Shown piece by piece: positions 21,730 to 60,222 of a stretch of 64,000 bases of DNA; the first letter of the stretch is position 1; the number at the start of each line of letters is the position of its first letter. A model generated the notes under the pieces. That model ran no database searches. It saw nothing but the letters and a program-made list of their open reading frames with translations, and was not told the origin of the DNA. Origin of the DNA: Candidatus Zhuqueibacterota bacterium. Lineage in GTDB: Bacteria; Zhuqueibacterota; Zhuqueibacteria; Thermofontimicrobiales; Sulfurfontimicrobiaceae. Position numbers and translations under genes: made by a program. The stretch lies in NCBI GenBank assembly GCA_016927835.1, contig JAFGMA010000011.1, positions 1 to 64,000 on the forward strand, read 5' to 3'.

Positions 21730-23280
21730 TTATTTGTTGGTCACTGCATCCGTTTTGCTAAGGTCGAGAAGCACATCAATGCGCCTATTCATGCTTCTTC
21801 CGTCTTCAGTTTCATTGGTCGCGATAGGTTTGCTCTTTCCATAGCCCACAGCCTGAATCCTGCTTTCAGGCAATCCCATATTTACCTGGAGATATGTCTT
21901 GACAGAATTCGCCCTTTCATTAGACAACCGCATATTGCTGACGTCCCTGCCTCTTGAATCGGTGTGTCCCTCGATGGTAATGTGGCATTCGGGAAATTCA
22001 CGGATCGCCTGCTGGACTTTTGTCAGAATGCTAAAATACTCAACGCCAATCGTGGTTTTGCCCGAAGGGAATGAAAGCCCTACCAATCGGAGAATCAGGT
22101 TCGTGCCTTCCCGGATGACTTTTGCTTCAGAGGCAGAAAACAGCTCTTCAATCCGCTTGAGCTTGGCTTCTTTGCGTTTTTCCGCTTCGAGTTTGGCATT
22201 TTTTTCGCGAAGGTCGGATTCGGTTTTATCCAGTTTACCAAGCAGGCGCTTTACTTCTTGCTCCTTGCCAGCAACATCGGCATTCAATTCGGTGAGATTT
22301 TGTGAGAGTCGTTTGTTATCATCTTTGAGATTGGTGATCGCAAGCCGAATAGAATTCAATGGTTTCTCCAGACCGCTATCGAATCGTGGGTTGAAATTCA
22401 ATTCGCCGGCGACTTTTTGCACATTTTCTTCATAGGACAGGATGAGACGTTCCCAATTTTTCTCATCTGCTTTATATTCCTGAACCAGATTTGAAAGATA
22501 GATCGCGTGGCTGGCTTCGTATTCGGCTTCTTCGGCCTTCTGCCGCGCGGTAGCCTGGGCACGACGATTGGTATTCAAAATCTTTTCTGATTCTGCCAAT
22601 AATGACTTCGCTTTAGCCAATGTGACGGGAGCGTATTTTTCTGCCTTTGCTTCATCCGCTTGCTTCAGCACGGTGTGCACTTTTCCGATGATGCTGGTTT
22701 TTATTGCCAACAATTCCGCATCACGAAATTTATCTTCGCTTTCTTTTCCCTTTTTAAGCGCGGAATTGATATCGTTATCTTCAATTTCCTCCATTGCACC
22801 TTTAAACTGCTCTTCTGCTTCGTCATACAATTCCAGGGCATATTCCGGCGCATCCGCAGCAAGCGCATCCTCGCGTGCTTTGATCAAATCGGGAAGTTGC
22901 TTGCGGGCTTCACTGGCATTTCTCAAAGCCAGCTTGAGTTGGTCTTCAACTTCATTCAGACGTTCAGCCAGCTTGTCTACGCCTTTGCGCTTTTCGAGTT
23001 CGGTTTTTGCCCGGTCGAGATTTTTGCGGCTCTTCAGGAATACGACCGGCGAAAGCAGATGTACTTGATCGGCTTGCGCTTTGTCCATTTGACTTTCGAG
23101 ATCAGCTATTTTCTCGGTGAGTTGGGCGATAATACCCTGAAACAGCGGAGGTTCGGCTGCCCTGACCAGGCTTATATGAGCGACGACAGCGAGAACAATC
23201 GCAGAGATTACGGCGATGCTTAAACCTGTACCACTTTTCCTACATGAGCGGCTTTGATGCTGATGCGTTTGATTAACCAT
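21730..23280 (-). CDS. OmpA-family protein with long coiled-coil
   Basis: A 516-residue envelope protein. Residues 20-42 are a membrane segment or signal sequence (LSIAVISAIVLAVVAHISL ... RAAE). About 45-375 are nearly continuous helical coiled-coil rich in Glu, Lys and Ala (DUF4398-like in part). About 400-505 are an OmpA C-terminal peptidoglycan-binding domain with IEGHTDSRG, NMRLSNERANSVKTYL, AVGYGKSKPIATNETEDGRSMNRRIDV. The Asp and Arg that hold diaminopimelate are conserved. AAGGAGGG lies upstream of ATG 23280. It likely links envelope layers through the wall. It has its own promoter far upstream. Confidence 0.88.
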   Translation of the reverse strand: MVNQTHQHQSRSCRKSGTGLSIAVISAIVLAVVAHISLVRAAEPPLFQGIIAQLTEKIADLESQMDKAQADQVHLLSPVVFLKSRKNLDRAKTELEKRKGVDKLAERLNEVEDQLKLALRNASEARKQLPDLIKAREDALAADAPEYALELYDEAEEQFKGAMEEIEDNDINSALKKGKESEDKFRDAELLAIKTSIIGKVHTVLKQADEAKAEKYAPVTLAKAKSLLAESEKILNTNRRAQATARQKAEEAEYEASHAIYLSNLVQEYKADEKNWERLILSYEENVQKVAGELNFNPRFDSGLEKPLNSIRLAITNLKDDNKRLSQNLTELNADVAGKEQEVKRLLGKLDKTESDLREKNAKLEAEKRKEAKLKRIEELFSASEAKVIREGTNLILRLVGLSFPSGKTTIGVEYFSILTKVQQAIREFPECHITIEGHTDSRGRDVSNMRLSNERANSVKTYLQVNMGLPESRIQAVGYGKSKPIATNETEDGRSMNRRIDVLLDLSKTDAVTNK

Positions 23281-50151: not shown

Positions 50152-52224
50152 TTATCGTGCGCGGGTGACCAGTACCTTCCCGTTCATATTTGCAAACACG
50201 GCAGCATTCCCATCGACAGCAGGGGAAGCGAAAATATAGCCATCACCTGCTTTAAACGACCAGCTTTTTCGAACTTGTTTCAAATCGAGCGCAGTGATAA
50301 TTCCGCCGACGGAACCGATAAGCGCCTTATCATTCCAGATAACAGGCGATGAGTCGAAGATCGGATCCTCTCGATTGATTTGAATTGCCCATTTTGTGAG
50401 ACCCGAATTAGCATCCAGGGCGAACAGGTGACCCGACAGCGATCCGAGGATGATGCAGTTCTCGTACCACGCAGGACTGGAGTATCCCGGCAACTGGTCA
50501 TCCTGTTTCGCATGGCGCCAGCGATTAGCGCCCGTTGCCAGATCAAAACAATGCACCACATGATCGTGCGACGCTACAAATACGCATCCGTTCTTGATTA
50601 ACGGATTGGATGTTGCCGCCGGAAAATACCGATTATCCGTGATTTTTACCTTCCATATCAGCGCACCGTCACTTGCACTCACTGCATAAAAATACCGATC
50701 CCACGAACCGAAGACAACTTTTTCAGCCTCATACGCTGGTTTGCATTTGATCAAACCTTGTGTCGGGAAACGCCAGAGAATCTCGCCGGTTTTCGTATCC
50801 AGCGCATACAGGCAGCTATCGCCTGAACCAAAATAAAGGCTGCCATTTCCCACCTCAGGTGATGAAAAAATCGCTTCCCCGGCTTGCCGCGACCATTGAA
50901 TCCGTCCGTCATTTTTATCAAACGCCAGACACTTCCCACCAGTGGTAGTGATAAATACCGCCCCGCCTGAAAGCGCCGGACTGGTTACGACGGCATCACC
51001 AACGTTGATCCGCCACAAACGTTCGCCGGATGTTGAATTTAGGGCTGTCACGTCACCATTCAAATCACCAATAAAAATGGCTTCGCCATTAACCAGCGGC
51101 GCACTCTGAATCCCGGCAGCAGATTCATATATCAATTGCAGATTCGTGCCGGATTGGGTGAGTTGTATGGGAGTCGACTCAAGCCAGGAGCAATTTTCCG
51201 CCAGTCTTCTCAGGCGTATCTGGTGGAATCCCGGAACAATCCTGCCAAAATCGATGCTTTGCCGATATGAACCAGTAGCCGAGAGAGAATCCCGGAATTG
51301 CAGTGTATCAACGAGCAATTCAAATTTGAATGGCTGCGAAAGCGTCAACGCCACTTCGAAATCGGCATTCAATTGTTGCCCGGAAGCCGGATATCGGATT
51401 TGACCCCTCGGCTGCTGCTCGCGACGAAGCGGTATTTTGCATTCAAACTCATGTGATTTGTTCGTGACATCGCGATTGAATATTGAAGCAGCGCCATCTT
51501 CGATTTTAAGAATCCTGTAGCCGGGTGCGTCTCCCATAGTTGCCAGGGTCATAAATAGATGCAACCCGTTAACGCACCAATGCGCATTCCGATGACCGTG
51601 CCCGCAGAGGATTATGGAAACATTATGCTCTCCAATCACTTGCAGAAGCTGCAAGTCATTATCCACATAGCGCGTTTCCCCAAGAACCGGATGATGCAGC
51701 GCCAGAATTACAGGTTGATTTTCCGGGAGGCTATCCAGCGTTTGCCCGAGCCAGGTAAGTTGATCGGCGGACAGGTGACCGTATTGTTCGGCAAACATGC
51801 TGGTATCGAGAATGACGAAAAGCACTCCTTTATACATAAATGAGCGAAAGCGCGGACCGACGAGTCGCTCGAAATCCTTTTTACCGGAATTGCACCAACG
51901 GGTTTCATGGTTGCCAATCGCGCTATATACCGGAATCCCGGCGGATTGCACAATTGTGTTGTATGTTGTCAATTCATCGATCGCTCCGAATTCAGTGACA
52001 TCGCCCGTATGGATGATGAAATCAGGTGCGACATCCGGACTTTTGATGTCAGCCAGCACCGCTTTCAATTTATCTTCAGTTTGACTGGCACCAATATGGG
52101 AATCACTGATGTGTACGAAAGTAAACCCATCGGCAAAAACGACATGAGCATTCAAAAAGATTACTGTGGCAATGGTGATAACAATCAGCGTATTAATTAT
52201 CCGGCGAATTATATCTGCTCTCAT
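50152..52224 (-). CDS. exported metallophosphoesterase with PQQ-type propeller
   Basis: 690 residues. Residues 8-31 are a signal or anchor segment (IINTLIVITIATVIFLNAHVV). Residues 35-260 are a calcineurin-like phosphoesterase with all metal ligands: Asp41/His43 (HISDSHIG), Asp75 (HTGDV), Asn105/His106 (GNHE), LHHP and GHGHRN. From about 340 a beta-propeller follows with repeated PQQ-like blades (NGEAIFIGDLNGDVTALNS, GGAVFITTTGGKCLAFDK, NGSLYFGSGDSCLYALDT). The frame is open to 52428 but Met at 52224 starts the signal. Ribosome site is weak. The propeller may bind a partner or glycan. Convergent with the FMN gene. Confidence 0.85.
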   Translation of the reverse strand: MRADIIRRIINTLIVITIATVIFLNAHVVFADGFTFVHISDSHIGASQTEDKLKAVLADIKSPDVAPDFIIHTGDVTEFGAIDELTTYNTIVQSAGIPVYSAIGNHETRWCNSGKKDFERLVGPRFRSFMYKGVLFVILDTSMFAEQYGHLSADQLTWLGQTLDSLPENQPVILALHHPVLGETRYVDNDLQLLQVIGEHNVSIILCGHGHRNAHWCVNGLHLFMTLATMGDAPGYRILKIEDGAASIFNRDVTNKSHEFECKIPLRREQQPRGQIRYPASGQQLNADFEVALTLSQPFKFELLVDTLQFRDSLSATGSYRQSIDFGRIVPGFHQIRLRRLAENCSWLESTPIQLTQSGTNLQLIYESAAGIQSAPLVNGEAIFIGDLNGDVTALNSTSGERLWRINVGDAVVTSPALSGGAVFITTTGGKCLAFDKNDGRIQWSRQAGEAIFSSPEVGNGSLYFGSGDSCLYALDTKTGEILWRFPTQGLIKCKPAYEAEKVVFGSWDRYFYAVSASDGALIWKVKITDNRYFPAATSNPLIKNGCVFVASHDHVVHCFDLATGANRWRHAKQDDQLPGYSSPAWYENCIILGSLSGHLFALDANSGLTKWAIQINREDPIFDSSPVIWNDKALIGSVGGIITALDLKQVRKSWSFKAGDGYIFASPAVDGNAAVFANMNGKVLVTRAR

Positions 52225-52412
52225 GGCTTTCTCGCAAAATAAATGATTGTTCGAATGTGCATTAAAGGAACAGTTACACGATACTTCTGAGTCCATCCAG
52301 TTGATTTGATGTGCCCTACATTGCCGATATTTTGCAAATGAATTGCATTTAATGATGTGCAGGCATTTCCATGTTCGATAAGCAAGTTGCAGTGCAATAG
52401 ATGTTTTCGATG

Positions 52413-52447
52413 AAAAACGCTCAAACACAACCCGGTGTTTGAGCGTT
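52413..52447 (-). terminator. rho-independent terminator of the PorV-OmpA gene
   Basis: On the minus strand a perfect 13-bp stem (AACGCTCAAACAC / GTGTTTGAGCGTT, 6-nt loop) is followed by TTTTTC. It lies 28 bp after the stop at 52475. Confidence 0.8.
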
Positions 52448-52474
52448 CAGGAGAGCGGTATTAAATATATCAAT

Positions 52475-55429
52475 TTAGCGTCCGGTATAAAAGAATACCA
52501 TAATTCGGCGATTCAATTGTCTGCCGAGTGGCGCATTATTGTCTCCCAGCAGAATCAGTTTGCCATCTTCCGACTTTATGCGGAAAGGTTCATCTTCCCC
52601 GAAGCCTTTTGGGCTGTCGAGCCGGCGTTTGATTTCGTCGTACAAATGGGGGTAAAGCTTGCCTGCATCCGAGAGAAATTTATTCTGGAAATCGTTGGCG
52701 CGCTTTTGGGATAGCCTGTTATTTATTTCATTGGATCCTGTAGCGCATCCATGTCCATGAAAACGCATTCGCGTTTTTGCGTCTTCGAGCAGGTATGGGA
52801 TGGCATCAAGCAAGCTGGTCCAGTAAAAATTGTAGAAAGGCGCGGTTGTGGCAAACTTTGCGAGCACATAATATCTTCGTTCGCGCCCGACAATTTTCGA
52901 GGTGACCAATGCAGTCTCGGGTCGGGATTTAAATTGCCGCCCCAAAGTGTCGTTCAAAACAACGTAGTAGGTCAATTCCTTGTCCAGCCAGTCGCCCAAC
53001 GTTGCCTCATCGAACTTATCTACCGACCAGAGAATATCCCCGACAACGCTGGCATCCTTGATCGCGTTTTGCATATTCAAGGCTTGCTGTTTTCCCTCTG
53101 CATCCAATTGGATGCCTCCGTTATCGAGCGGAACCACTCCGAAAATTTTCGAGGGAAATACCACCGGTAAATTCGTTTTTTCGATATAACGCGTTTGCAG
53201 CGGATCAAATATTGCCTGTTCCGATGCCTCATCAGTTGTAATATCCACACGCCGGCGCTCTTCCAAAACCCAGCGTGCGTCTTCGGCTTTACTCGGCAGC
53301 TTACGCAGTAGCAATGCTTCACCACCCAGAATTTTCATCTGGCTGAAGTTTACGCCAAGACTGAATAGCGTATCCCTGACGGCGCGCGCGCGCGCTTTCG
53401 CCAGCGCCAGGTCCTGCTCACCGGAATTGGGATCGATTGTCCCTTGCAGCGCAATTTTCACCTCGGGATGCTCTTTCAATCGCTTTGCAAAAATTGCCAG
53501 CGGAGGTTCGATTTCCCAGTCATCGATGTACCTGTTATCAACTTTTGCGCTGTTATTATCGAAATAAATTTTCCCGACATACGGAATATCATAAATAACA
53601 TGATATTGTTCCTGAACGATCAGCGAGTCATCCACGGCACAGACGCCTTTAGGAATGGAGTAAAACGCTGCGTTCAGCACATTGACCACTTTATCATTCC
53701 GTTTTGTATTTGCTATCTCGGTACCGATACGATGTAATCCGTGCAATCCCGTTTGCCACTCCAATTCCAGAATCACACTTTCGCCCGGATTGATATCAGG
53801 CAGCATCTGTCGGGATAACAAAGAATCCCTTACAGAACGCACCACCAGTGACTGCGCCAGGCTGGCAGGTTGCGCCATCAACGAATCATAAATTGCCAGC
53901 GAAAAATGTTTGGCAATACGGTCTCCGAAATTCTGAATTTTGAATTTCAGAATTCCCTGGTATGTATCCTGAGTAATCCAGGGACTGTACTCGAAGTTGA
54001 TCGCAATGACCCTGGGATCGGGCGCAGTTACGCGAAATTTCGCGATTGGATTCTGATGCATTTCACCGAAGCGGATATGGTTATCCATGTCATACGCCAT
54101 CACCGACCAGAAGTAGTTGCCCCCTTCAAGCTCGCTCATCAAGAAATCGGTCTGCTGCGTTTGCACATTCACCAGCAATGCTTCCTGTTTCAGGAAGGCG
54201 AATACCGAATCTTCATCCCCCTTCGCTATTTGCGTGATTCTGGCAAGTTTGGTGCTATCCTGGTCAACGATGAGCATCCAATCGACATCATCGTACAGAT
54301 CGGGATCGCGTGTCCATTCCCAATTCAAAGTGACAAAATCCCGGTGGATGAGCGCATTATAATCGGGCGCAATCAATCTGAAGGATTCCGGTCCGATAGG
54401 TTGATGCGTCATCGTGCCATGATACGGCGCTGCAAAATAGTCGTTATTTTGATTCGAAGCAAGGTCGAAACGCAACGCATTATTTCCGCCGGGAATGATC
54501 GTGTTCAGGAGTCGATCATCGAGTCGAAAGCCACCTCCGAATGTTAAATGTCCCAGCAAATTATCTTCAAAACTATACCCCATTCGGAGCGAAATCCACT
54601 GGCGCCATGAAAGCTCCGATCCAATAGTCAGGAAGCCATCTTCATCGCGAACCAGACGGTAATCGGTGGCAACGCTGAACTGAAGCCCGCGATGAGCGCC
54701 GATATTCACTGCTGCACCGGCGCGATACGTGCGGGGCAATGGTGTATCTTCCGAGATAAATTGGATCGACTGCCCCACATTATTCACCGATAAGCCAGTG
54801 GAAAAAATGATATAATCCATGAAACCGTTTGCTGGTCTGAAAAACGTCAATCGTGGGGTGCGCAAGAGGATGCCGGCGTCAAAAATCATGACATTCGCTT
54901 CGTATCCGGCGAGTTGGCTATTGAAATATTTGACGTTCGCCCCGCAGGAAACGTAGTCCGTCAAAAAACTAAGGGGCTGCCCCACGCTCGCTGCAACGAG
55001 AAGGTTATTTCCCGAAACCGGCAAGCTCTGATCTTCGGCGTTATTAAATTCGGGTATCCCGAGATAATTTACGCCCAATCCAAAACGTGTCCTGCGGCTC
55101 CATGGCATTCGAATATTTCCGCCGTAAAACAGGGATGCATCATAGATATCCGAAATCCAATTGGTGTACGTCGCCGACCACTGCCATTGCCGGAGAAAAC
55201 CGGTCGCGCCAGGATTGGCGTAAAACGAGTGCGTATGATCGAGTGCACCAGTCAAGGTACTGTATGTGGCGACTTCGCGAGCGCCATGCAGCATTTTCAA
55301 ATACCCGGAGCCAGCCCGGATCTGGGCACTGACTTGCATCGGAAGGAATGCAAATACAATCAGCAATATAACCCTGAAAAGCAGTTTGTCTGCTGCAAAA
55401 TCCGATTTGATGCAGCGCCTGTTTTTCAT
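52475..55429 (-). CDS. PorV-like barrel fused to two OmpA-type domains
   Basis: 984 residues. A signal peptide ends near MQVSAQ. About 40-310 resemble the PorV/UPF0164 outer-membrane barrel (MLHGAREVATYSTLTGAL, YANPGATGFLRQWQW, GLGVNYLGIPEF). Fn3-like and CARDB-like segments follow. About 640-750 are a first OmpA-like domain (KIYFDNNSAKVDN, KARARAVRDTL). About 880-984 are a second (FHGHGCATGSNEINNRLSQK, LGRQLNRRIMVFF). The gene is coupled to the upstream VWA gene by an ATGA overlap, which is why ATG 55429 is preferred over 55453. PorV acts as a cargo shuttle in type IX secretion; fused wall-binding domains are unusual. A terminator follows. Confidence 0.78.
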   Translation of the reverse strand: MKNRRCIKSDFAADKLLFRVILLIVFAFLPMQVSAQIRAGSGYLKMLHGAREVATYSTLTGALDHTHSFYANPGATGFLRQWQWSATYTNWISDIYDASLFYGGNIRMPWSRRTRFGLGVNYLGIPEFNNAEDQSLPVSGNNLLVAASVGQPLSFLTDYVSCGANVKYFNSQLAGYEANVMIFDAGILLRTPRLTFFRPANGFMDYIIFSTGLSVNNVGQSIQFISEDTPLPRTYRAGAAVNIGAHRGLQFSVATDYRLVRDEDGFLTIGSELSWRQWISLRMGYSFEDNLLGHLTFGGGFRLDDRLLNTIIPGGNNALRFDLASNQNNDYFAAPYHGTMTHQPIGPESFRLIAPDYNALIHRDFVTLNWEWTRDPDLYDDVDWMLIVDQDSTKLARITQIAKGDEDSVFAFLKQEALLVNVQTQQTDFLMSELEGGNYFWSVMAYDMDNHIRFGEMHQNPIAKFRVTAPDPRVIAINFEYSPWITQDTYQGILKFKIQNFGDRIAKHFSLAIYDSLMAQPASLAQSLVVRSVRDSLLSRQMLPDINPGESVILELEWQTGLHGLHRIGTEIANTKRNDKVVNVLNAAFYSIPKGVCAVDDSLIVQEQYHVIYDIPYVGKIYFDNNSAKVDNRYIDDWEIEPPLAIFAKRLKEHPEVKIALQGTIDPNSGEQDLALAKARARAVRDTLFSLGVNFSQMKILGGEALLLRKLPSKAEDARWVLEERRRVDITTDEASEQAIFDPLQTRYIEKTNLPVVFPSKIFGVVPLDNGGIQLDAEGKQQALNMQNAIKDASVVGDILWSVDKFDEATLGDWLDKELTYYVVLNDTLGRQFKSRPETALVTSKIVGRERRYYVLAKFATTAPFYNFYWTSLLDAIPYLLEDAKTRMRFHGHGCATGSNEINNRLSQKRANDFQNKFLSDAGKLYPHLYDEIKRRLDSPKGFGEDEPFRIKSEDGKLILLGDNNAPLGRQLNRRIMVFFYTGR

Positions 55430-58386
55430 CTTACGATCATTAATTTTTTCCATGCGTTAATCCCATCTGCCTGTAAAGTGATGATGTAAAAACCGCTGCC
55501 TACCTTCTGTCCATCTTCCGTGAGACCATTCCAGGTGTATGCATTCCAACCTGCGTTAAAATTGGCTTCAGTCAAAGTGGTAATTTTTGTTCCTGTGATA
55601 TCCCACAGATCGAGCTGTCCAAAGCGGCGAGATTTAATTTTAAAACGAATAATGAGATTGTTATCCTGTTCAGGAATGAAAACATTGCGATTGACATAAA
55701 AATCGTCGATGCGAATGACAGTCACCGATGCGCGCACACTCTTGAGAACACCAAAGGCATCTTTTGCGCGAAGCTCAAATACCATCGGTTCCTGCCCGGC
55801 TTCCGTGCGCATTTGAGTCACGTTATAGAGCGGTTCAATATTTACCCACGTATTCGATTCGAGGACCGTCACATCTATAAAATCATCAGCATAGCTTGAA
55901 TCGATTTGACCATTCGCAAAACGCACCCAGAGATCCCAGGTTTGAATCGGGACAGTGGTTTGCACCCGGACGGAAATATCGGCGCCCACTTCAACCTTCG
56001 GCGGCGTGGCTTCGATGAATGGCAGCCAATCGGAAGGCGGCTTCACAAGATTGTAAACCGTATCGATATCGACATTATTTGCCAGAAGCGCGGGATCTTC
56101 GTTTGATGCGCTGACCTTCACGAAGTTAATCAACAGATTTTTTCCAATCGGCATCTCGCCAGGTACCGTGGCATCAAATGCTATTTCCGCCGACGTACGG
56201 GGTTGCAGCGCTGCAAAAGTCCAGACAAGCGAATCACCGGTATTCACCGTCGGCGTTGGTTCGAAATTGTCGGTGGCAATCAAATCCGGTAGCAGATCGG
56301 TCACAACGACGTCCTTTGCCACCAATGTACTCAAATTCGTGACAGTGAGCGTGTACCTGTACACTTCGCCTTTGCGGACGAATCGCAGGGTATCGCCCCC
56401 GACAATCGCAACGGAATCCGTCGCCGCAACCTGGCGCACCGCGACGTCTACCAGTTTTCCTTTGGGATTCGGGATGACATAAATGGTGGTACTGGCGAAA
56501 TTGTTCGCTTTCGCCGTATCGTACTGCGCATCCACTGCACTGTTATTCACCAGCGGAAATGGTGTGAACGGAAGCTCAGCAATTGCCGCTGCTTCGAAAG
56601 AAATTGACAGCGTATCCCCGCTGGTTAAGGAATCAAATTTCCAGAAAACCGTATCAGATGTCATTGTCAAGGGCTGGTGGCTGAAACCAAAAAACAGCAC
56701 AGAATCCGGAATTGCATCCCACAAGGTGATGTCCTTTGCGGTTTCAGGTCCGCTGTTTTTTATCGTAAGCCGGTAATCATAGCTGTGTCCCAATAATACA
56801 GCCCTGACTATATTGCCTTCATGCTTAATTGTCGTATCGGTGGAGACCTCTTGTGTCAGGGAAAGATCATAAACCGGGGGCGGTGGTTTGACCCACGCTT
56901 TCACCATTTCAGACGCATAGTTATTTCCCGGCACAGTATCGTTGTTCGCTGTCACCTGAGCCTCGCTGAATAGATCAGTGAGTTGCAAGGGAAGAAGATC
57001 TTCATGCTGAACGGAAACGGAAATCGTGATTTCATTATCAGGGTAATATTTAAAAAATTCCCAGACAAGCGAGTCATCATTCGCCGATTGCGGCGGCAGC
57101 GATGCCTCGAGATAGCGCACCGAATCCGGCAGGCGATGTACCAGCTTCACCGTGTCAGCGATGAAGGGTCCGAGATTATCCAGTTTAATTTGATAATCAT
57201 ATGCGCTGCCCGGGTGAATTGCATTTATGGTGTCGCCAGCAATTTCGAGTGTTGTGTCTGTTGCCGATGCCAGGTCGACAGCCATATCAGCCAGCAAATA
57301 CGCGGGCGGACCATCAAAATAATAGCGCCCGATTCCCCTGCCCTTTTTATCATCTATGTCGACAGTGACATCAATGAGTCGCCAGCTTTTATCACGTCCG
57401 GGATCCGGGGAGCAATGCGCCAGCACATAATAATTCTGCATCACATCGGATAGCCTGGCATAAATTTGCTGCATCTCCTCGGCAGTCGCGGCTTTGAAAA
57501 AGATGCCGCCGGTTTCATCGGCAATTTGCTTCAATTCGTTTTCCTGAGTATCTTCTCCCAGGGCAATGGTAAAAATGGGCAAATTCAAAACATTCGCGCT
57601 ATCAATGATTTCGCGGGGGTAATCGCGCGTGGAATCGGAGAGGTTGTCTTTGCCATCGGTGTAGACAATAATGCCGCGTCGACCTGTTTCCTTGCTGATG
57701 CCGGCGACAGCAACCATCAACGCATCATAAAGCGCGGTTTTGCCACTGGGTCTGGCTCGGCGGATATCCGCTTTCAGCGCCGAGGTATCGGTTGTCATCT
57801 CGATAATGGACTCGACCGAATCGGAGAATTGAATAATCCCGCAGCGATCAACTGAGCGCAGCAAGTCGACATACAACAACAATCCGATTTTTGCCGCTTC
57901 CAGTTCTTCATTCATGCTCCAGGTAACATCCATAACCAACATCGTGCTCGTGGGCAAAGGCATTGATTCGCGCACTTCCGTCACCAGGGCTTTGGGATAT
58001 TGATTGTACAAATCGGAATCGGGCGTGGCAGCCTGGTTGTGCATATCATATTCCATGAGCGGATGCCAGATATCCATGATCGGTTTACCGATTTCAGCGG
58101 TATCTGCCGCTCCGAGCCATCGCAGCGTATCCGCTAGACCAAATACGATATTTGCCTGGCTATCGAGAACGGAAATTGTTGACATAATTGGGAACGGAAA
58201 ATCCGCTGTTAATCCCCGCAACGTCAATTCGCCGTTCATGACCACATTATTCACACTGATGATATATTCATCCTGAAGCGAGTAGGATTGAAGAAAGCTT
58301 TTCCCATTTGCCGTGTGAATGCCGAGGGTAAACATGAAGACAAGAGATAACACAATAGCCTTTCGGGAACGATTGATGTTCATCAT
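55426..58386 (-). CDS. secreted VWA/DUF11 surface protein with sorting domain
   Basis: 986 residues. Signal peptide 1-29. About 145-340 form a von Willebrand A domain with a metal site (DVTWSMNEE, Asp153/Thr155/Ser157; SGKTALYDALM; VYTDGKDNLSD). Three DUF11/CARDB-type repeats follow (SYDYRLTIKNSGPETAKDI, VYRYTLTVTNLSTLVAKDV and one more). The C-terminus is a FlgD/T9SS-like module (LDLWDITGTKITTLTE, WNGLTEDGQKVGSGFYIITL, KKLMIVR). It is an adhesin-type surface protein. Upstream ribosome site is weak (GGTGG). The PorV-OmpA gene follows with a 4-bp overlap, so the two are made together. Confidence 0.85.
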   Translation of the reverse strand: MMNINRSRKAIVLSLVFMFTLGIHTANGKSFLQSYSLQDEYIISVNNVVMNGELTLRGLTADFPFPIMSTISVLDSQANIVFGLADTLRWLGAADTAEIGKPIMDIWHPLMEYDMHNQAATPDSDLYNQYPKALVTEVRESMPLPTSTMLVMDVTWSMNEELEAAKIGLLLYVDLLRSVDRCGIIQFSDSVESIIEMTTDTSALKADIRRARPSGKTALYDALMVAVAGISKETGRRGIIVYTDGKDNLSDSTRDYPREIIDSANVLNLPIFTIALGEDTQENELKQIADETGGIFFKAATAEEMQQIYARLSDVMQNYYVLAHCSPDPGRDKSWRLIDVTVDIDDKKGRGIGRYYFDGPPAYLLADMAVDLASATDTTLEIAGDTINAIHPGSAYDYQIKLDNLGPFIADTVKLVHRLPDSVRYLEASLPPQSANDDSLVWEFFKYYPDNEITISVSVQHEDLLPLQLTDLFSEAQVTANNDTVPGNNYASEMVKAWVKPPPPVYDLSLTQEVSTDTTIKHEGNIVRAVLLGHSYDYRLTIKNSGPETAKDITLWDAIPDSVLFFGFSHQPLTMTSDTVFWKFDSLTSGDTLSISFEAAAIAELPFTPFPLVNNSAVDAQYDTAKANNFASTTIYVIPNPKGKLVDVAVRQVAATDSVAIVGGDTLRFVRKGEVYRYTLTVTNLSTLVAKDVVVTDLLPDLIATDNFEPTPTVNTGDSLVWTFAALQPRTSAEIAFDATVPGEMPIGKNLLINFVKVSASNEDPALLANNVDIDTVYNLVKPPSDWLPFIEATPPKVEVGADISVRVQTTVPIQTWDLWVRFANGQIDSSYADDFIDVTVLESNTWVNIEPLYNVTQMRTEAGQEPMVFELRAKDAFGVLKSVRASVTVIRIDDFYVNRNVFIPEQDNNLIIRFKIKSRRFGQLDLWDITGTKITTLTEANFNAGWNAYTWNGLTEDGQKVGSGFYIITLQADGINAWKKLMIVR

Positions 58387-59189: not shown

Positions 59190-59714
59190 CTATAATACAT
59201 CCAGGTTGGCAGGTTCAAAATATTCGCGCGGATGCTTGCAGCTCGGGCATTTTCCCGGTGGCTCTGTGCCTTCGTGGACAAATCCGCAAACCCCGCATTT
59301 CCATTTGATTGGCTTGTCGCGTTTATATACGGTGCCATTTTCAACCATTTCCAACAACTTTTTATAGCGGTCCCGGTGATGGGCTTCGATTTTCAGAATC
59401 TGCTTGAATAATGTTGCTGCTTCGGTATTGCCTTCGGCTTCCGCTTCTTTGGCAAAAGTCGGGTACATTTCGGTGACTTCGTAATGTTCGCCTTCTATCG
59501 CTGCTTTGAGATTAGCAAGCGTATCGCCGATGCCCTGCAGCAATCTGAATTCATCTTTTGCATGTTGACTTTCATTATCGGCAGTTTCCTCGAAGATTTT
59601 AGCGATGTAGTGATATCCTTCTTTTCTGGCAGCTTTCGCAAAATAGGTGTATTTATTCCTTGCCTGAGATTCACCTGCAAATGCGGCTTGTAGGTTGTCT
59701 TGAGTTTTGCTCAT
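59190..59714 (-). CDS. rbr: rubrerythrin
   Basis: A 174-residue non-heme iron peroxidase that reduces hydrogen peroxide in anaerobes and microaerophiles. The diiron ligands lie in FAGESQARNKY, EETADNESQHA (Glu48, His51), FAKEAEAEG and KIEAHHRDRY (Glu110, His113). A rubredoxin-like C-terminus has Cys140, Cys143, Cys156 and Cys159 (CGVCG, CPSC). AAAAGGAG before ATG 59714 sets the start; the frame stays open far upstream through the regulator gene in another phase. It follows the PerR/Fur-like gene by 64 bp, with an imperfect operator in the gap. Expected to be induced by peroxide. Confidence 0.95.
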   Translation of the reverse strand: MSKTQDNLQAAFAGESQARNKYTYFAKAARKEGYHYIAKIFEETADNESQHAKDEFRLLQGIGDTLANLKAAIEGEHYEVTEMYPTFAKEAEAEGNTEAATLFKQILKIEAHHRDRYKKLLEMVENGTVYKRDKPIKWKCGVCGFVHEGTEPPGKCPSCKHPREYFEPANLDVL

Positions 59715-59745
59715 TCCAAAGCTCCTTTTAGTTGATGATACTTGG

Positions 59746-59760
59746 TAAGAACAATTATTA
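59746..59760 (-). promoter_or_regulatory. imperfect PerR/Fur-type box before rubrerythrin
   Basis: TAAGAACAATTATTA fits a 7-1-7 inverted repeat with two mismatches and resembles the perfect box at 60235-60249. It suggests separate control of rubrerythrin. Confidence 0.4.
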
Positions 59761-59778
59761 TTTATTAGGTAAATTTTT

Positions 59779-60222
59779 TTACTCAGTAATTTGACACCTC
59801 CGGCAAATACCGTTGAGGACGACCCGCCGATTAATGATCCTGAAGTTTTCCGGAAGGCATTCCGGCATCTCCAGTGAATCATATTTCTCATGGATAAAAT
59901 CCATAATTTTTCCGCACTTGATACAGTGCAGGTGGTGATGGTCCTCAGTATTCGGATCGAAGCGTCTCGCGCCGCTGTAAGATTCAACGATATCGATAAT
60001 GCGAATCTGCGCAAAAGTCAGCAGCGTTCGATTGACAGTATCGAACGAAATATTCGGATACTCATTTTTTACACTACGGTATATTTCATCAGCAGTCGGA
60101 TGCATTTTCGAAACGATAATCTCACGATAGATTGCGATGCGCTGCGGCGTCACCTTGAGATTATAACGCCGGCATTTGACCGTAAATTCTTCGAACCAAT
60201 TTTTTGATGGTGTTTTTTGCAT
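59779..60222 (-). CDS. PerR/Fur-family regulator
   Basis: A 147-residue winged-helix metalloregulator. The DNA-binding part covers 20-80 (KVTPQRIAIYREII, HPTADEIYRSVKNEYPNIS, TVNRTLLTF). The dimer part has ARRFDPNTEDHHHLHC and the zinc site Cys100/Cys103 with Cys140/Cys143 (CIKCGK, CRRC). The pairing with rubrerythrin and the DHHHLHC region favour a peroxide sensor (PerR) over an iron sensor (Fur), but metal choice cannot be read from sequence. A perfect palindromic box lies 13 bp upstream of ATG 60222, so autoregulation is likely. It is cotranscribed with rubrerythrin. Confidence 0.9.
   Translation of the reverse strand: MQKTPSKNWFEEFTVKCRRYNLKVTPQRIAIYREIIVSKMHPTADEIYRSVKNEYPNISFDTVNRTLLTFAQIRIIDIVESYSGARRFDPNTEDHHHLHCIKCGKIMDFIHEKYDSLEMPECLPENFRIINRRVVLNGICRRCQITE

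Follow-up and report, generated by a model that had tools for sequence, protein, structure and literature searches.

The gene pair and its products

We analysed a stretch of 64,000 nucleotides (the window) from a Candidatus Zhuqueibacterota bacterium, of the phylum also known as candidate division KSB1 (GenBank assembly GCA_016927835.1, contig JAFGMA010000011.1, positions 1 to 64,000). Its reverse strand carries two overlapping genes. The first encodes an adhesin-like protein with a C-terminal domain (CTD) of the kind used in type IX secretion systems (T9SS), and is referred to here as the cargo; the second encodes its partner, which joins a PorV-type β-barrel to two OmpA-type domains. An ATGA-overlapping pair made up of a VWA/DUF11 cargo and a PorV-OmpA fusion had been proposed from the sequence alone, and both genes were found where this original prediction had placed them (Table 1).

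The N-terminal region of the partner matches the PorV/PorQ family NF033709 at 89.2 bits, just below the cut-off of 90, and the family matches all 49 fusions scanned for domains (E 0.001 or better), a sample picked by completeness and length limits from 94 fusion open reading frames (ORFs). Run on the partner together with 31 relatives, AlphaFold2 (AF2) predicted the barrel and the OmpA folds with confidence. In the barrel, the predicted local distance difference test score (pLDDT) was 72-96 for most blocks of 10 residues; the linkers were poor, and the whole-chain mean was 65. The top two Foldseek matches of this model were PorV chains from the Flavobacterium T9SS translocon (8gl6_F and 6h3i_F, E 4.7e-12). 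A second structural aligner placed the barrel nearest to PorV (Z 33.3 and 32.7, the former with a root mean square deviation of 3.5 over 286 residues), ahead of FadL-type channels (Z 24.5-27.7) and other porins (17.8 and less), and a profile of the 49 fusions searched against the PDB matched PorV at 7.6e-17. As modelled, the barrel is thus FadL-like, with about 14 strands, and closest to PorV, the fold that the original prediction had named in advance as a check on its reading. Two other assignments were dropped: membership in the PorP/SprF family, because PF11751 is nearly without matches (none in the window partner; 1/49 fusions, E 0.0097), and identity with PorE, taken as a lipoprotein with TPR, propeller, CRD and OmpA domains, because the partner has only a 13.5-bit match to NF052230 in its OmpA part and no lipobox seen by eye at its N-terminus.

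Taken singly, the cargo falls short of the curated threshold for a T9SS tail (TIGR04183, 16.3 bits against a cut-off of 23). Its C-terminal end is matched at E 5e-35 by a CTD profile made with sequences of other genomes, and about 73 further matches in its own genome are to that end only. The assignment of a CTD made in the original prediction is therefore secured through the family, the single sequence being insufficient. A structure model of the cargo had a mean pLDDT of 40.8 and was discarded, so the fold of the CTD is unsecured by modelling. Among 45 cargos scanned for domains (picked from 85 by completeness and length limits), DUF11 occurs in 44, FlgD_ig in 41 and the type A tail model TIGR04183 in 34. 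The type B signal CHU_C, found in gliding-associated CTDs, matches 2 of the 45 and is unmatched in the window cargo. Because VWA (TIGR03436) is found in only 20 of the 45, it appears from these domain matches to be optional among cargos, the stalk repeats and the CTD being the constant parts.

Table 1. Features of the cargo-partner pair, with positions in the window and residue ranges of the proteins
Feature	Position	Strand	Description
Cargo gene	55426..58386	(-)	986 aa: N-terminal signal sequence (by eye), VWA, three DUF11 repeats, CTD
VWA domain of cargo	57457..57939	(-)	Residues 150-310; PF00092, E 1.5e-14
DUF11 repeat region of cargo	56047..57291	(-)	About residues 366-780; PF01345, E 1.6e-32, 3 stretches; outer limits from alignment with P0004
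T9SS-type CTD of cargo	55429..55692	(-)	Residues 899-986; FlgD_ig and weak TIGR04183
ATGA overlap	55426..55429	(-)	Cargo stop and partner start, read from the sequence
Partner gene	52475..55429	(-)	984 aa: PorV-type barrel, Fn3-like, CARDB-like, OmpA-1, linker, OmpA-2
PorV-type β-barrel	54518..55303	(-)	Residues 51-312 of the 992-aa ORF; NF033709, E 3.8e-25; AF2, about 14 strands
Fn3-like segment	54029..54418	(-)	About residues 346-475; without family match; fold guessed from sequence and a low-confidence model; limits approximate
CARDB-like domain	53654..54019	(-)	About residues 479-600; CARDB in 33/49 family members; Foldseek 3idu; limits approximate
OmpA-1	53240..53575	(-)	Residues 627-738; PF00691; Pal Z 13.9; motif
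OmpA-2	52484..52885	(-)	About residues 857-990; NF053585 and others; modelled strands and helices 849-982 (984-aa numbering)
Cys903 codon	52745..52747	(-)	Replaces the peptidoglycan-binding Asp; Asn911 and Arg918 kept
Terminator-like hairpin	52415..52448	(-)	14 pairs and a T-run, 27 nt 3' of the partner stop

The ORF finder starts the partner at 55453 (992 aa), whereas the overlap needs a start at 55429. We adopted the latter because the Met encoded there stands at the aligned position in all three paralogues and gives the ATGA overlap. The hairpin beyond the second gene is unlisted by the terminator consensus scan; the 81-nt stretch that holds it folds at -22.4 kcal/mol (z -4.34). Given the overlap and this downstream hairpin, the two genes probably form a single transcription unit. 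The hairpin separates the pair from the next gene on the same strand (50152-52428), which by eye encodes a phosphoesterase-like protein with PQQ-type repeats. Upstream of the pair, at 59190-60222, are rubrerythrin-like and Fur/PerR-like ORFs, also recognized by eye.

Conservation and matching of the pair

Of 82 genomes from the phylum, 70 gave a match at E 1e-40 or better to a profile of the three fusions in the genome of origin, as did 45 of the 49 good genomes. The 94 ORFs read comprise the window, two paralogues and 91 fetched loci; three short fragments (G067:C607, G014:C6, G064:C136) were left unfetched, and three G040 rows were merged as one gene. Counts exclude L049 and L050, whose contigs are those of L086 and L085, and six loci were set aside for unusable upstream sequence (363 nt at L099; 0-1 nt at L126, L146, L157, L158 and L169). 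The upstream ORF was chosen by hand for L133 and L159. At 85 of the 88 readable fusion loci, the adjacent upstream gene is on the same strand and encodes a protein with a CTD, so the idea that the two genes are chance neighbours was rejected and the conservation that the original prediction had named as a check is borne out in KSB1. Apart from the window, the cargo stop lies within an ATGA at 33 of 84 paired loci. An independent CTD profile, derived from two proteins of the genome of origin that are not paired, matched 84 of 85 upstream ORFs tested, the miss (L162) not being a cargo; among 166 other ORFs that are 300 aa or longer, it matched 6.

The genome of origin (7.58 Mb, 452 contigs) encodes two more fusions, one on C291 that is 38% identical over its full length and one on C364 that is 29% identical and has a propeller extension. 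The gene immediately before each of them encodes a DUF11-type protein with a CTD, at a distance of 21 and 15 nt, respectively. A fourth, shorter PorV-OmpA protein, on C422, lies downstream of a large CTD-like protein (CTD profile E 0.00065). In the same genome, a 559-aa protein (L223:5140-6819) seemingly joins VWA to OmpA, which would be another means of connecting VWA with the wall.

Only 1 of 17 genomes reached via named loci held a full-length fusion, namely a KSB1 genome apparently identical to G064; none was found in L064, another KSB1-labelled record. On a Gemmatimonadota chromosome (L051:4609-10046), a CTD cargo, a PorV-Fn3 protein and an OmpA protein are encoded by three consecutive separate genes in the same order. 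In two-sequence searches, the PorV plus Fn3-like protein (492 aa) matched positions 4-458 of the fusion model at E 6e-62, and the OmpA protein, which begins 13 nt further on with a lipoprotein-like start, matched positions 562-761 at E 1.7e-16. Judged by these matches, the three genes would be the unfused form of the unit, which supports a scheme of carrier plus wall part.

Similarity among CTDs follows similarity among barrels. Across 84 pairs (L159 excluded) the Spearman coefficient was 0.758, whereas shuffling CTDs within genomes gave a mean of 0.384 and a highest value of 0.669, with none of 300 shuffles reaching the observed value. In the 16 genomes with two or more pairs, 143 comparisons agreed, 20 disagreed and 101 were too close to call. 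Because joint inheritance of neighbours can explain such a correlation, the covariation shows matched units, not binding.

A cysteine in the second OmpA domain

OmpA is present in all 49 fusions scanned. The motif of OmpA-2 reads GHGCATG (52736-52756), confirming that the Asp of GHTD is missing, as the original prediction had remarked; the domain is not broken, since this is a conserved Asp-to-Cys (GHxC) variant. PorE is described as binding peptidoglycan through the side chains of Asp576, Asn584 and Arg591 (PMC7192894), and OmpA-2 has Cys903, Asn911 and Arg918 at the spacing of this triad. The Asp position is occupied in 66 of 67 near-full-length fusions, by Cys in 62 and by Asp in 4 (L010, L104, L142, L145). 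It is the sole conserved cysteine of the fusions, the next-best columns holding 13/67 and 6/67. A pattern search for the last OmpA motif in all 94 fusion ORFs gave Cys in 67, Asp in 10 and another residue in 1, with the motif unfound in 16. In the fusion tree, from which 11 rows were left out and in which the labels of L010, L143, L144 and L162 were assigned by hand from the motif alignment, the cysteine is spread over deeply diverged branches (median end branch 0.53 changes per column). The other OmpA domains of the genome of origin have Asp in all seven that could be read; a further one is degenerate, and three went unread. An OmpA-domain protein of 516 aa elsewhere in the window (21730-23280) has an ordinary GHTD motif. 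The Asp-bearing L010 is a fusion paralogue with a C-terminal Reg_prop-like propeller (L010:4076-8278).

We rejected the view that OmpA-2 is a decaying copy, as the cysteine is kept in 62/66 and the Asn and Arg of the pocket are retained. That one exact site has altered while the rest of the pocket stays intact points to a new function, not to decay. To our knowledge, no family accounts for this conserved cysteine. A lone periplasmic cysteine on an adhesin carrier is suggestive of a parallel with Flavobacterium SprF and PorG, which are reported to be disulfide-bonded to GldK, and with Porphyromonas PorG, which has a single Cys (PMC12635249). We put forward, tentatively and as a rather doubtful possibility, that a PorV-type carrier has been turned into a permanent display post in a phylum-wide branch of T9SS. 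OmpA-1 would hold the wall, and the OmpA-2 cysteine, in its preserved pocket, would bond covalently, through a disulfide to an envelope partner or a second carrier, and so lock each adhesin and its own carrier into the envelope.

A putative export-and-anchor unit

From the features computed here (order of the two genes and its conservation, PorV fold, OmpA folds, CTD, CTD-barrel covariation and conserved cysteine), we consider it likely that cargo and partner form a dedicated unit for T9SS export and anchoring, in which a single chain would both carry a surface adhesin and anchor it to the wall. The VWA/DUF11 adhesin-like cargo would cross the inner membrane via Sec, its CTD would be recognized, and it would exit through the SprA translocon. 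The adjoining PorV-type barrel would then take it over by the CTD and retain it on the outer membrane, while the Fn3-like, CARDB-like, OmpA-1 and OmpA-2 domains, as the periplasmic part of the same chain, would attach the barrel either to the cell wall or to a different component of the envelope. The steps that we infer are that the barrel binds the CTD, that the cargo is displayed at the surface, that OmpA-1 binds the wall and that OmpA-2 has changed its role. SprA was found in 79 of the 82 genomes and PorU in all 82 (73 over cut-off). In Flavobacterium, the CTD is reported to bind loops of the carrier inside SprA and to depart with it (PMC10994853), and type B cargo to remain on its own carrier, partly with PorE-like proteins (PMC12618676 and PMC9143113). 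By analogy, the arrangement seen here fits this carrier scheme, except that barrel and wall part are fused.

Several known systems resemble the pair. In Porphyromonas gingivalis, PorE, PorP and PG1035 were found as a complex in which an outer-membrane barrel keeps a CTD cargo at the surface and is linked to an OmpA-type peptidoglycan-binding domain (PMC9143113). That complex has three proteins, a PorP/SprF barrel and a type B cargo, whereas here there is one chain, a PorV-family barrel and an FlgD/type-A-like CTD; the best reading of the likeness is that the partner may do in one chain what PorP and PorE do for PG1035. As in SprB-SprF and other type B pairs of Flavobacterium johnsoniae, cognate cargo and carrier adjoin with the carrier downstream; there the CTD is described as read by its own carrier, and five operons also have a PorE-like gene (PMC12618676). 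SprF-type carriers differ in being unfused to OmpA, and the CxC tail of SprF is reported to be bonded to GldK (PMC12635249). PorV itself (8gl6, 6h3i), the type A carrier of the T9SS translocon, is the best match in sequence and structure and shares the barrel fold, but it is a free barrel for many cargos, whereas this one is fused and paired with one gene. Like TraAB of Myxococcus xanthus, the pair consists of a surface protein with a C-terminal sorting tag and, across a four-base gene overlap, a partner with a C-terminal OmpA domain; unlike here, the TraB N-terminus has no homology described in the paper cited, the tag is MYXO-CTERM and the function is membrane exchange (PMC3325183). The TraB model matches 4/49 fusions, presumably via the OmpA part. 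In Acinetobacter, the trimeric autotransporter adhesin Ata has a separate wall-binding helper with an OmpA domain, TpgA. The barrel there is that of an autotransporter, not of a T9SS; the TpgA model matches 12/49 fusions.

Several points weigh against an export-and-anchor unit, among them the joint inheritance mentioned above. Three readable loci have a fusion without a cargo: the neighbour is a divergent gene at L092 and, by eye, RNA methyltransferase-like at L162, and the L148 fusion is without the barrel part. The cargo CTD resembles type A signals, and in Bacteroidota type A cargo is described as released or handed to lipopolysaccharide, anchoring by the carrier being known for type B (PMC10994853). 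OmpA-1 keeps Asp674 and Arg688 without the triad Asn, and OmpA-2 is without the triad Asp, so wall binding by these domains is, from their residues, not assured; the wall anchoring suggested by the original prediction is a conjecture, supported by the OmpA folds together with the Asp and Arg that OmpA-1 retains. A family model found no GldM in the 82 genomes, and GldL was not found in the genome of origin, both weak tests in which the control was silent, so that absence is not shown. No GldK scored above cut-off in the 82 genomes, again a weak test; the matches to its model look like the common sulfatase-modifying-type domain. These searches also bear on whether the partner is a force-bearing or mobile adhesin carrier, with Cys903 forming an intermolecular disulfide to a track or ring protein. 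The single periplasmic Cys conserved in 62/66 and the SprF and PorG precedents, including the single Cys of P. gingivalis PorG, speak for such a carrier, but the failure to detect GldK, GldM and GldL, weak as the tests are, and the position of the Cys within a folded OmpA domain instead of a flexible tail make it improbable.

The last point against an anchoring unit comes from free PorV-like barrels of the genome of origin that have no wall part and are paired too: 12 of 19 (L227-L245) have a CTD protein directly upstream, counted with a CTD profile from fusion-paired cargos of other genomes, the two-sequence CTD profile having detected few. Two further free barrels resemble the paired ones by eye. 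Cargo tails beside free barrels often end like GKFVIIK, those beside fusions like WKKxIIVR. These counts point to many dedicated carriers in this genome, and at named loci of other candidate phyla barrels and CTD proteins are in part likewise paired. The notion that pairing is special to the fusion is thus unsupported; the dedication to one cargo suggested by the original prediction is favoured by the covariation, but is an arrangement shared with free barrels. Because 12/19 of these are likewise paired, what sets the KSB1 units apart, as far as gene order indicates, is the fused wall part, one-barrel-one-cargo pairing being common outside fusions in this sample. Pairing therefore needs no anchoring, and the OmpA part might merely stabilize a large outer-membrane protein, keeping the barrel in place while an ordinary PorV-like shuttle releases its cargo without display, and PorU, which would be consistent with this, is present. 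We regard this as unlikely, since a fused architecture of roughly 980 aa with two OmpA domains is kept across members as diverged as the tree indicates, and nearly all cargos are adhesin-like (DUF11 in 44/45).

A role in sensing, with the VWA/DUF11 ectodomain detecting a ligand or contact and the carrier relaying the signal to the wall or periplasm, seems very improbable. In its favour, the propeller of L010 is of the two-component-regulator type, and Reg_prop occurs in 1/49 fusions. Against it, by eye no kinase, sigma or anti-sigma gene lies beside the pair in the window, and the cargo ectodomains are of the repeat-rich stalk kind usual in adhesins.

A search of the open-access literature found no account of PorV-OmpA fusions or of a KSB1 T9SS. 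The original prediction is borne out in its facts and, as far as computation goes, in its idea. What is new here is the probable union of T9SS carrier and wall anchor in a single chain that is matched to one adhesin, kept phylum-wide and marked by a conserved cysteine. The open question of how T9SS cargo is assigned to its carrier and retained at the surface has been addressed nearly exclusively in Bacteroidota. The matched cargo/carrier pairs described here, more than 80 from a different phylum and in some genomes several at once, make the CTD-carrier code testable by swaps. With barrel and wall anchor on one chain, the postulated bridge from barrel to wall becomes directly testable, and the conserved cysteine in the OmpA pocket offers a simple target for thiol trapping.

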